A DNA stretch of 26,552 nt, from positions 1-26,552 of IMG/VR virus record IMGVR_UViG_3300025769_000698, one strand, 5' to 3'. Positions within the stretch are counted from its first letter, which is position 1. Each line of letters opens with the position of its first letter. A model generated the notes under the pieces. The model was not told the origin of the DNA and ran no database searches. It worked only from the letters and a program-made list of their open reading frames with translations. A program made the position numbers and the translations under genes. Shown here piece by piece: positions 20,858 to 25,711 of this stretch. The DNA is from a virus.

Positions 20858-21529
20858 ATGAAATACAAGATTTTAAACTTATATGCTTGTCTTGGTGGCA
20901 ATCGCTACAAGTGGGATGAAGTAGCTGATGAAGCTAAAGTTGAAATTGAAGTTACTGCTGTTGAATTAGATGAAGAACTTGCAAGACTTTACCAGGAAAG
21001 ATTTTCAAATGATATTGTGATAGTTGCTGATGCTCATCAATACTTACTTGACCATTACAAAGAGTTTGATTTTATTTGGAGTTCTCCGCCTTGTCCTAGT
21101 CATTCAAGAATAAGATATGGACAAGCAAATAGTAAGAGAGATAATTACAATCCAATATTCCCTGATATGAAATTGTATGAAGAAATAATATTTTTAGACA
21201 ATTATTATAGTGGAAAATATGTAGTTGAAAATGTAATTCCATTTTATGAGCCATTAATTAAGGCACAAAAAAGGGACAGGCATTTGTATTGGTGTAATTT
21301 TAAACTCCCAAATAGCTTGAATGAAAGAAAAAAGCCTAAAGGATTTATTGAAAGCGGAAGTAAGCCAAATGAGATATTTCATAAAATAGACCTTTCAAAA
21401 TATAAAGGAAATCAAAGAAAAGATAAAATTGCTTGTAATTTAGTAGACTACGAAGCCGGAAGAACAATACTTGAAACAGCACTCGGAATAATAAAAGACA
21501 ATAATAAAGAACAAATAAAACTATTTTAA
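20858..21529 (+). CDS. C5-cytosine DNA methyltransferase, short form
   Basis: This 223-residue protein has C5-methyltransferase motifs in alpha order: motif I LNLYACLGGN (6-15, less Gly-rich than the usual FxGxGG), motif IV SSPPCPSHS with catalytic Cys79, and ENV (124-126, in VVENVIPF). Asp/Glu-rich strand ends after motif I fit SAM binding. It is shorter than typical members of over 300 residues, and most of the target recognition domain seems reduced. The C-terminus EQIKLF matches the sliding-clamp-binding pattern. It probably marks phage DNA against host restriction. Its leader TAGAAACA fits the local start context. Confidence 0.88.
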   Translation: MKYKILNLYACLGGNRYKWDEVADEAKVEIEVTAVELDEELARLYQERFSNDIVIVADAHQYLLDHYKEFDFIWSSPPCPSHSRIRYGQANSKRDNYNPIFPDMKLYEEIIFLDNYYSGKYVVENVIPFYEPLIKAQKRDRHLYWCNFKLPNSLNERKKPKGFIESGSKPNEIFHKIDLSKYKGNQRKDKIACNLVDYEAGRTILETALGIIKDNNKEQIKLF

Positions 21530-22651: not shown

Positions 22652-23296
22652 ATGGCAACGAATAAACGGAAATGTAAAGAATGCCAAAAGGTGTTTGAAA
22701 AGAAACAGCCGCTACAATACGTTTGCAGTCCTATCTGCGCTATAAACTATGCCAAGAAAAAAGAGAAGTTTAAATGGAAAAAAGAAAAGAAGAAGAGATT
22801 AATTGATCTTGAAAGCGTAAGCGGTGTTCAATCAAAGTATATTCAGCCAAAGGTTAACGAGTTGGTGCGAATTATAGACAATGGCTTACCTTGCATAGCG
22901 ACTGGCAACTTTGGAAAGATGGCTGCTGGGCATTACTATCACGCTGGTGGTCATAGTCAAATAAGATTTAACTTGCACAACATTCACATTCAATCATTTC
23001 AGTCGAATAGTTTTAAAAGTGGCGATGCGCTAAATTATAGGCAAGGCATCATAAAGACATACGGAGAAGATTACATCCAGTTTATGGAGTCGCTAAAACA
23101 AACACCAATAAACGACCACACAAAGGCTTTCTACTTGGAGTTAAACAACAAGCTAATCGAAGTTAAAAAGTGGCTTAAAGTGCAAGTAAATGGGCAAATG
23201 CAAGACTCTGCGAGTAGGATACAACTGCGTAATGAAGTGAACTTGCTATTAGGCATTTATGACAAAGAATATTGTATATTTAAACAAAAATTATGA
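22652..23296 (+). CDS. ninG: NinG-like recombination protein
   Basis: This 214-residue protein has an N-terminal zinc-ribbon-like C-x2-C...C-x3-C (Cys8, Cys11, Cys25, Cys29), a basic helix (KKKEKFKWKKEKKKR), then the NinG/Rap core AAGHYYHAGGHSQIRFNLHN (91-110) and GIIKTYG. In lambda, NinG (Rap) is a recombination endonuclease that acts on branched DNA. The second zinc set usual in the family (CxxC and QCxxCN) is reduced to CIATG and QSFQSN. The last about 30 residues occur again as a diverged remnant 950 bases downstream. It overlaps the PP-loop gene by ATGA. Confidence 0.85.
   Translation: MATNKRKCKECQKVFEKKQPLQYVCSPICAINYAKKKEKFKWKKEKKKRLIDLESVSGVQSKYIQPKVNELVRIIDNGLPCIATGNFGKMAAGHYYHAGGHSQIRFNLHNIHIQSFQSNSFKSGDALNYRQGIIKTYGEDYIQFMESLKQTPINDHTKAFYLELNNKLIEVKKWLKVQVNGQMQDSASRIQLRNEVNLLLGIYDKEYCIFKQKL
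23193..23284 (+). repeat. Direct repeat copy 1: 3' end of ninG
   Basis: Bases 23193-23284 align without gaps to 24146-24237, matching at about 75 of 92 positions. Of the codon differences, ten are synonymous and four change residues. Similarity stops just before GGCAAATG and just after ATTTAAA. The repeats flank the PP-loop gene. Confidence 0.85.
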
Positions 23297-24144
23297 AAAC
23301 AATTAATAGTTTAAGTGGAGGAAAAACATCAAGTTATATCGCCAAACATTATCCAGCAGACTACAATGTGTTTGCACTTGTAAGAACAAGTGATAAAAAT
23401 TGTATGTTTCCAGATGCAAAGATTAGACAAGAGGTATCGGATAGAATTGGCACAGATTTTATTGGAACATTGGAAGATGATGTAATAATTTACACAATGC
23501 TTGATTTAGAGCAGTACATAGGCTCAAAAATTGACTGGGTAACTGGCAAAACTTTTGATGAATTAATTTTAAAAAAAAATGGAAAAACATTTTTACCATC
23601 ATATATGCGAAGATTCTGCACTACTGATATGAAAATTGAGCCTATAAAACAATTTTGGTATAACAATATTCGTGAATTGGTTGAAATGAGAATAGGATTT
23701 AGGGCTAATGAGCAGAATAGAGCAAATTCTATGATTAAACGTTTAAATAAAAATGGATTGGAAATGTCAAAATTTGTTATTGGTAAATTTAAAAATGGAA
23801 ATAATAAATGGGCAGAAATGGAATGGAGAAAACCAACTTTTCCTCTTATAGATAATAATATTTTTAAGGATAAAATTATTAATTATTGGAAGGATAAAGA
23901 TGTAAGATTTGCTTGGATGAATAATTGTGTAGGATGTTTTCACAAGCAGCCCATACTTTTAAATAAAATGAGTAAGCTGCACCCTAATAAATTAGAGTGG
24001 TTTGCAAGTAAAGAAAGGGAAAGTATTAATGGTGCAACTTGGCAAGAAAATATTACCTATGATAAGATCATTGCTCACACTATGCAAAGAGAATTGTTTG
24101 AAGATGATTTTGATGAGTGCGATAGTGGGTTTTGTGGATTATAA
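23293..24144 (+). CDS. PP-loop ATPase, PAPS reductase-like family
   Basis: This 283-residue protein has an N-terminal PP-loop SGGKTSS (8-14), which binds ATP pyrophosphate in N-type ATP pyrophosphatases. The layout resembles PAPS reductase/DndC-like proteins. Cysteines occur in FCTTDMKI (Cys109), NCVGC (Cys212, Cys215) and CDSGFC (Cys276, Cys281), and could hold a metal or iron-sulfur cluster. It may thiolate or adenylate a nucleotide or tRNA, or modify phage DNA. QRELF (265-269) also matches the clamp pattern loosely. The gene is ATGA-coupled to ninG and flanked by ninG 3' repeats, so it looks like a horizontally gained insert. Confidence 0.78.
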   Translation: MKTINSLSGGKTSSYIAKHYPADYNVFALVRTSDKNCMFPDAKIRQEVSDRIGTDFIGTLEDDVIIYTMLDLEQYIGSKIDWVTGKTFDELILKKNGKTFLPSYMRRFCTTDMKIEPIKQFWYNNIRELVEMRIGFRANEQNRANSMIKRLNKNGLEMSKFVIGKFKNGNNKWAEMEWRKPTFPLIDNNIFKDKIINYWKDKDVRFAWMNNCVGCFHKQPILLNKMSKLHPNKLEWFASKERESINGATWQENITYDKIIAHTMQRELFEDDFDECDSGFCGL

Positions 24145-24145
24145 A

Positions 24146-24240
24146 GGCAAATGCAAGATGTTGCCAGTAGAATACAACTGCGAAACAAAGTTAAGTTGCT
24201 ATTGGGAATTTATGATTGGGAATATTGCATATTTAAATGA
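24146..24240 (+). pseudogene. Remnant of a second ninG 3' end
   Basis: Directly after the PP-loop stop, in the same frame, the sequence encodes about 30 residues like the NinG C-terminus: QMQDVASRIQLRNKVKLLLG, then IYDWEYCIFK and a TGA. The intact NinG has QMQDSASRIQLRNEVNLLLG and IYDKEYCIFK. The TGA shares its bases with the ATG of the next gene (24237). A 29-residue peptide from ATG 24151 could be made but is more likely a relic. The excess of synonymous changes says both copies evolved as working genes before being joined. Confidence 0.8.
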
Positions 24241-24665
24241 AAAAATATAATAGCTTTTATAAAGATTTAGACGCTGGAATTACTGTTGAATTAGAAGTTC
24301 TTAATATTATTAAGCAAAAGTACCCAAAGGCATACAAAATAGATGGATACTTTTCTGGATATGATTTATTTGTGCCAGAGTTAAACATTGGAATAGAGGT
24401 AAAAAGTGACAAAAAAAGTTTAGAAACTGGAAACATAGTTATAGAAATTGAATTTAATCACAGACCATCAGCATTAAGCGTAAGTACTGCTAAATATTGG
24501 GTAATTTACGATGGTATAAGTTATCATTGGTTTTTAGTAGAACGAATAAAAGACTGCATATTTGAAAACAAACTAAAAGCAGTTGAATTTATTGGAAATG
24601 GAGATACAAAAAGTAAAAAAGCATACTTAATTAAAAAGTCAATATTGTATAAATATCAAGAATAA
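24237..24665 (+). CDS. Small PD-(D/E)XK endonuclease-like protein
   Basis: This 142-residue protein has a PD-(D/E)XK core: Glu18/Glu20 in the N-terminal helix (TVELEVLNIIKQKY), Asp43 in GYDLFVPE, and Glu54-x-Lys56 in IGIEVKSD. A following HRPSALSVSTAKYWVIYDG strand-helix region is like the VRR-NUC/Holliday-resolvase-type nucleases. It could resolve branched DNA or act as a restriction-like nuclease. The start overlaps the ninG remnant stop. The region is AT-rich like the PP-loop gene, in keeping with common transfer. Confidence 0.75.
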   Translation: MKKYNSFYKDLDAGITVELEVLNIIKQKYPKAYKIDGYFSGYDLFVPELNIGIEVKSDKKSLETGNIVIEIEFNHRPSALSVSTAKYWVIYDGISYHWFLVERIKDCIFENKLKAVEFIGNGDTKSKKAYLIKKSILYKYQE

Positions 24666-24717: not shown

Positions 24718-25020
24718 ATGAGTAAACTATTAACTGGGTCTATTGACCTTAACAAAATTGACAAGACAAAAATCGTTTCTACCGACAAAAACGGCAATCC
24801 GTTTGAGAATGGTGCGAAGTATTTGAACGTAGTAGTATGGCTAAATGATGAAGCCGACAAATACGGAAATAACGCTTCAATCCAAATAAGCCAATCTAAA
24901 GAAGAAAGAGAGTCTGGAGTGAAAGCAATCTACATAGGCAATCTAAAAGAGCCACAGAGCAGAAGTAACGAGCCAACAAGCGCAAGAACTGCATCTGTTG
25001 CAGATGACTTACCATTTTAA
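24718..25020 (+). CDS. Single-stranded DNA-binding-like small protein
   Basis: This 100-residue protein has a beta-rich N-terminal part (LTGSIDLNKIDKTKIVS, KYLNVVVWLNDE, NASIQISQSKEER). A Ser/Arg-rich linker then leads to the C-terminal end VADDLPF, the acidic aromatic tail seen on bacterial SSBs (DDxPF), which binds partner proteins. The size is below that of a full OB-fold SSB, but a compact phage version is plausible. Its own promoter-like box fits strong expression. The call is inferred from the tail and position; the fold is not proven. Confidence 0.65.
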   Translation: MSKLLTGSIDLNKIDKTKIVSTDKNGNPFENGAKYLNVVVWLNDEADKYGNNASIQISQSKEERESGVKAIYIGNLKEPQSRSNEPTSARTASVADDLPF

Positions 25021-25039: not shown

Positions 25040-25201
25040 ATGAGAAAAATAATAACAAGCCACGACTGTCCACCTATTCCAGTAAGTGATTATGACTGGT
25101 CGGCATCGCGAGAAGATTGGGATGAGGGCGATTTAATCGGATATGGAAGAACAGAGCAAGAAGCCATTGATGATTTGCTTGAACAAGAATTTTTAAGATG
25201 A
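25040..25201 (+). CDS. Small acidic hypothetical protein
   Basis: This 53-residue ORF has a strong local start context (CAAAAAACA before ATG). The chain has MRKIITSHDCPPIPV, DYDWSASREDWDEGD, GYGRTEQEAIDDLLEQE and a basic end. The motif GYGxTExEAIxDL resembles small conserved phage proteins of unknown role. It is very acidic, so a host-protein mimic of DNA is possible. Its stop overlaps the next start (ATGA). Confidence 0.72.
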   Translation: MRKIITSHDCPPIPVSDYDWSASREDWDEGDLIGYGRTEQEAIDDLLEQEFLR

Positions 25202-25356
25202 GTAAAGGAATAAATGATGATGGGTTAATAGGTGGTGTATGTTCTTATTTGGGTAAGCATACACCAGTACCTATTTGGTGCTGGAGAGTGCTATTTGTAG
25301 TCTTGCCATTTAGCTCTATTGTTTACCTTATAATCTGGGCATTGATAGATGTTTAG
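25198..25356 (+). CDS. PspC-domain-like small membrane protein
   Basis: This 52-residue protein has the PspC signature in order: LIGGVCSYLG, then a short polar spacer, then a Trp-Arg before a strong hydrophobic segment (VLFVVLPFSSIVYLIIWALI). PspC proteins act in envelope-stress response in the inner membrane. A phage copy may blunt host envelope stress or exclude superinfecting phage, which is inference. It is ATGA-coupled to the previous gene and its end overlaps the next ATG (25349). Confidence 0.75.
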   Translation: MSKGINDDGLIGGVCSYLGKHTPVPIWCWRVLFVVLPFSSIVYLIIWALIDV

Positions 25357-25711
25357 GATTAGCACAAGACTTGCGATACTACTAAAGGGTATTGTGATCA
25401 AGATACCATTGGAATGTAAGGGTATGCTTCAAGGAATCAACGAGAAGATAATATGGAAGAAGTATAAAGATGTTGCACCATTGGCTGAGTTGAAGTTTGA
25501 ATTCTTAGGGATAATAATTCAAAAGAGATACAAGCACGTTGACTTTATCCCAATGGAAGAGGTGGACAGAATCAAGGCTATCATTTCTGAGTTTCAGTTT
25601 GAAAATGGTGACCTCTGGAACTACGAAAATTGGGGTGTGGATGATCAAGGAAACTACATACTACTTGACTATGGTAACTCTAAGTATGTGGCAAGCTTGT
25701 ATAAAAGATAA
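25349..25711 (+). CDS. Minimal kinase-like hypothetical protein
   Basis: This 120-residue protein shows kinase-like elements in sequence order: VIKIP (Lys18 like the ATP-binding lysine), NEKIIWKKY (Glu32 like the paired helix-C glutamate), a hinge-like IIIQKRY, then GDLWNYENWGV (Asp88, Asn94) and ILLDYG (Asp107, like DFG). Spacing from Asp88 to Asn94 is one residue longer than in the protein kinase or APH motif. At 120 residues it is far shorter than a true kinase and may be catalytically dead or a mimic. The ATG overlaps the PspC-like stop. Confidence 0.7.
   Translation: MFRISTRLAILLKGIVIKIPLECKGMLQGINEKIIWKKYKDVAPLAELKFEFLGIIIQKRYKHVDFIPMEEVDRIKAIISEFQFENGDLWNYENWGVDDQGNYILLDYGNSKYVASLYKR

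Follow-up and report, generated by a model that had tools for sequence, protein, structure and literature searches.

The main source of mosaicism in phages is the exchange of diverged sequence, driven by homology (De Paepe et al. 2014, PMC3945230), and Rap, formerly NinG, is a Holliday junction resolvase whose loss lowers exchange (De Paepe et al. 2014, PMC3945230). In this study we focus on a viral contig of 26,552 nucleotides, called here in its full length the window, in which the 3' end of a ninG gene occurs twice, with a PP-loop gene sitting between the two copies. The phage moron is another described system to which such a locus can be compared; in its strict definition, it has its own promoter and terminator. 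Our main reading, to which we give a probability of about 80%, is that ninG borders a cargo slot, that the PP-loop gene was imported into this slot from an L016-like phage, and that it was stacked onto a small nuclease gene (nuc) with a remnant of ninG in between.

The gene at 22652..23296 (+ strand) encodes an intact protein of 214 aa, and its membership of the NinG/Rap family is confirmed: it matches Pfam NinG (PF05766) with an E-value of 5.6e-25 and 88.7 bits, against a curated cut-off of 25.4, and PHROG 171 with an E-value of 3e-44. A protein search of 2.9 million viral contigs gave 23 close loci, to which a profile search added one. The ninG relatives split into two clades. L001-L014 group with the window (the window clade) at 80-96% protein identity, while L015-L023, at about 66-71%, form a sister clade. 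The window protein is 93-96% identical to those of L001-L009 and 66-71% identical to those of the clade that contains L016. Its nearest relative shifts along the gene, and recombination is visible throughout ninG. Named phages hold no close DNA relative, the best ninG match (43%) being found in Cellulophaga phages, and a search of bacterial and archaeal genomes for close ninG relatives returned two distant ones only.

Downstream of ninG, relatives carry a conserved gene of 100 aa (24718..25020 in the window, + strand; PHROG 24909, function unassigned); where the sequence of a relative covers both genes, it follows ninG at a distance of 50-1430 bp. The interval between these constant flanks is a cargo slot, for which at least six different states occur. 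It is empty (50-55 bp) in L002, L003, L011, L019, L020, L023 and L184, and a NUMOD4-HNH-AP2 endonuclease occupies it in L001, L010 and L012-L014. L004-L008 have a small gene there that is nuclease-like by eye and has no family match, L009 and L015 another small nuclease-like gene, L018 and L021 DNA methyltransferases, L022 one gene of unassigned type, and L016 a 51-aa ORF followed by a PP-loop gene. The L004-type cargo was also reached in two more contigs via the 100-aa gene. The original prediction had named a lack of layout variation among related phages as evidence against itself; the relatives do differ in slot content.

Cargo and flanks also have unlike histories, both between the window and L016 and between L009 and L015. 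The last two (L009:6001-7504 and L015:4753-6167) have a common nuclease-like cargo that is 95.5% identical in DNA, against 78% for ninG and 77% for the 100-aa flank, and this cargo crossed the same two clades in a separate, independent transfer. The gap from the ninG stop to the start of the HNH cargo contains a conserved segment with ACAAGTCGTAGC...CTGCTACG, possibly a hairpin (L001:3941-4050, L010:6636-6746, L012:6627-6736).

Other positions of the window vary as well. A DNA methyltransferase-like gene (70-74% DNA identity to L015/L016) lies at 20858-21529 of the window, upstream of a DnaA-C-terminal-like gene; L001, L004 and L010 have a PP-loop homologue of about 42% identity at the matching position, and we read this as a second variable position. 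Downstream of the 100-aa gene, 25040-25711 has no DNA match in the 16 relatives compared, both sides being 85-98% identical, and is probably a third.

The PP-loop gene of the window (23293..24144, + strand) encodes a PAPS-reductase-like protein of 283 aa that matches PHROG 424 with an E-value of 5e-22 and no Pfam family. Its structure model weakly resembles LarE and PAPS reductase, with no PDB match under an E-value of 0.001; a PDB sequence search with the profiles of the three proteins gave no match. The SGGKTS loop and the conserved cysteines are retained across 25 PP-loop relatives, and the nearest PP-loop protein among named phages is 38% identical. The ATG of the gene overlaps the ninG stop, which suggests a transcript shared with ninG.

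At the DNA level, the PP-loop gene is 95.3% identical to the slot cargo of L016, while the identity of the window to L016 is 75-80% in ninG and 76% in the 100-aa gene; the PP-loop gene therefore crossed clades, and the claim that it is foreign to the backbone holds. Both edges of the imported block can be located. On the left, exact identity to window-clade tails (L002, L010, L011) stops at 23274, inside ninG codon 208, and from there 26 bp (23274..23299, + strand; GTATATTTAAACAAAAATTATGAAAA) are identical to L016, other tested relatives sharing at most 11 bp. The cysteine codon at this edge, TGT in the window, reads TGC throughout the rest of the window clade. On the right, L016-type sequence ends at 24145, one base past the PP-loop stop, in line with a BLAST block that aligns 23282-24145 with L016 5205-6068 at 95%. 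Past this stop L016 has TAAAATAACTTG, whereas the window has TAAAGGCAAATG, i.e. ninG from codon 181 onward. Stretches of about 9-13 bp are common to the two clades at the left border; at the right border we found no homology beyond chance between L016 and known ninG alleles, which stand in for the actual parents.

It had been proposed that a ninG allele and the PP-loop cassette travelled together from another phage. The second half of this proposal stands; the first does not, as donor sequence starts only at 23274. Because it starts inside codon 208, the ninG body and nearly all of the first copy of the 3' end are window-clade DNA. The comparisons thus indicate that the PP-loop donor gave at most the last few ninG codons, and that the ninG body and both copies of its end belong to the recipient clade. 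The order of ninG followed by a PP-loop gene, looked for among relatives as the same prediction advised, occurs once, in the sister-clade phage L016, but with the 51-aa ORF in between. Like the PP-loop gene, this ORF opens with ATGAAAA, and its loss or gain between the two ATGAAAA repeats explains the difference between the window and L016.

The repeated ninG 3' end comprises copy A (23193..23290, + strand), the end of the intact gene, and copy B (24146..24240, + strand), an orphan end from codon 180/181, also called the stub below. A repeat search of the window aligns 23193-23290 with 24146-24243 without gaps at 81% identity, and self-BLAST gives 80.6% over 103 columns (E-value 5.9e-20). Over the 30 full codons 182-211, the copies differ at 17 bases that fall in 14 codons, ten of them changed synonymously; our recount agrees with the earlier description of a gapless, in-frame repeat, which was accurate. 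The stub lies in frame with the PP-loop gene, directly past its TAA (24142-24144), and reads RQMQDVASRIQLRNKVKLLLGIYDWEYCIFK before a TGA at 24238-24240. Its frame is thus that of both the PP-loop gene and ninG, and its start is one base past the PP-loop stop.

This arrangement is known from one metagenome contig. The window-clade tail pattern, searched in 2.9 million viral contigs, gave 14 stretches with one copy each and no second ninG tail in other phages, and in a self-comparison of about 200 loci, a number that counts overlapping parts of one contig separately, a second ninG tail was seen nowhere else. L187 shows self-repeats close to its distant ninG; considered as duplicated gene ends, they were rejected, being AT-rich, promoter-like intergenic sequence. 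A single contig could be an assembly chimera that joins two strains of the metagenome. However, the inferred parents share no k-mer at the right join, only about 9 bp are common to the window clade and L016 at the left join, and a misjoin at a repeat is expected to give identical copies, while A and B differ by 19%; we regard a chimera as highly improbable.

Copies A and B are distinct alleles, both of the window clade. Over 90 sites they differ from each other at 17, whereas A is nearest to L002 (8 differences) and B to L001 and L005 (8 each). In a maximum-likelihood AU test, a sister grouping of A and B is rejected with p-AU 0.026, a value that falls to 0.00013 once the imported last codons are removed; as the tail tree has 90 columns and most of its branches are weakly supported, the separateness of A and B is firm and the placement of each is not. 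The tree check on the two 30-codon segments, which the original prediction had called for, therefore does not make them closest relatives. If the ninG 3' end had recently been duplicated in tandem and had then diverged in place, the frame and the gene end would be the same in both copies, as we see. This reading conflicts with the AU test, and 12 of the 17 differing sites, a two-base TCT/GTT change among them, show both states as alleles in other window-clade phages. We hold such a duplication to be extremely improbable.

The private changes of the two copies are unequal in kind. All three of copy B are nonsynonymous (E195K, N197K and a tryptophan at 205), and N197 is invariant in 17/17 full ninG sequences; neither of the two in copy A is nonsynonymous. 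The excess in copy B has a Fisher p of 0.06 on small numbers, and its amino-acid changes fit relaxed selection on a decaying scar, which is suggestive only.

The second cargo, nuc (24237..24665, + strand), encodes a PD-(D/E)XK nuclease-like protein of 142 aa. Its AlphaFold model (pLDDT 90) has the homing endonuclease I-Ssp6803I as best PDB match (E-value 5.8e-4), followed by Hjc, and residues D43, E54 and K56 are invariant among 26 relatives; a PD-(D/E)XK fold is likely, with TM-scores under 0.5. The relatives of nuc mostly adjoin genes other than ninG. The nuc ATG overlaps the TGA of the stub by 4 nt, an overlap with the upstream stop that recurs in 54 of the 77 nuc relatives with a readable start. 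An ATG at 24151, seven bases past the PP-loop stop, opens a 29-codon ORF that ends at the nuc start and is a possible mini-ORF. The stub plausibly serves as the initiation region, or translational leader, of nuc; the start of nuc within the stub, and a coupling of nuc translation to the stop codon of the stub, may be what keeps the stub in place.

In six other loci (L049:5001-6757, L151:788-2556, L051, L052, L056 and L119), a PP-loop gene, one further gene and nuc stand in a row beside a homologue of the 100-aa gene; the middle gene is sigma-70-like in both loci that were read (L049, L151). A joint arrival of the PP-loop gene and nuc was rejected as the main reading, as the donor block reaches no further than the PP-loop stop and nuc is missing from L016. 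The stub could also be the remnant of a second, complete ninG that once stood between these two genes, given that other phages do have a gene there and that L028 has a distant ninG downstream of its PP-loop gene. We find this very doubtful, since the intervening gene of L049 and L151 is not a ninG, the stub starts exactly one base past the PP-loop stop, and no ninG follows the PP-loop gene in L016.

The history that we propose builds on what can be read from the sequence, i.e. a slot with alternative contents, a foreign PP-loop block with both its edges, and two 3'-end alleles of one clade. The ancestor of the window phage would have had nuc in the slot, the nuc ATG overlapping the ninG stop. 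An L016-like phage would then have donated the PP-loop gene of its own slot, and the left join would have formed at short homology in the last ninG codons (codon 208). The right join would have bypassed the homology normally used beyond the slot, so that the end of the PP-loop gene met codon 180/181 of the nuc-linked ninG, and the outcome would be two stacked cargos with 92 bp of ninG left between them. Such an order of events and a right join of non-homologous nature seem to us the best account; either two alleles met at this join, or the working ninG was overwritten later through ordinary recombination. The predicted parent, a phage in which the small nuclease gene comes immediately after ninG, was searched for among relatives and not found, so we infer that parent from the stub alone.

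A single recipient suffices if the PP-loop gene was inserted once with staggered ends (codon 208 on the left, 181 on the right) and the resident ninG 3' end was copied in the process. A and B would have been identical at first, and A would have been replaced afterwards through ordinary recombination with other alleles. The frequent recombination of ninG, seen in its changing nearest relative, and the window-clade character of both A and B agree with this account. However, it requires an extra allele replacement confined to the working copy, and the two haplotypes match different existing phages; it is a tentative alternative, less probable than not but to be taken seriously.

The gain of an accessory gene can be read unusually well from this locus, which shows the clade of the donor, the two edges and what remains of the target; beyond this legibility, it illustrates known phage mosaicism. 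The slot adjoins the gene for Rap, a promoter of such exchange, and holds homing-type nucleases in relatives; it therefore becomes testable whether cargo exchange is driven or passive here. One driven scheme, which we consider unlikely, is that the slot is actively mobilised: its nucleases (NUMOD4-HNH, PD-(D/E)XK) would cut cargo-less ninG 3' ends, repair would carry the cargo in, and the stub would mark a repair that ended inside ninG and was kept as nuc leader.

As in the mosaicism of temperate phages (PMC3945230), a block was exchanged between diverged phages, and the short shared stretches at the left border may be traces of homology. Unlike there, the window has one apparently non-homologous border and a partial ninG copy left behind, and the phages of its group resemble marine Bacteroidota phages, not lambda. 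The slot is like phage morons, or variable cargo slots, in that single accessory genes lie between two conserved genes and vary among close relatives, as the constant flanks and differing contents found here illustrate; it is unlike them in that the window stacks two cargos with a border-gene fragment between. The homing-type NUMOD4-HNH genes in the same slot of relatives, together with a nuc fold model closest to I-Ssp6803I, recall intronless homing, in which a free-standing phage endonuclease cleaves alleles without the insert at the site of insertion, but the PP-loop gene is no nuclease and the relatives of nuc are mostly found next to genes other than ninG. Set beside these systems, the locus is a legible fossil of ordinary phage gene shuffling, not a new system.
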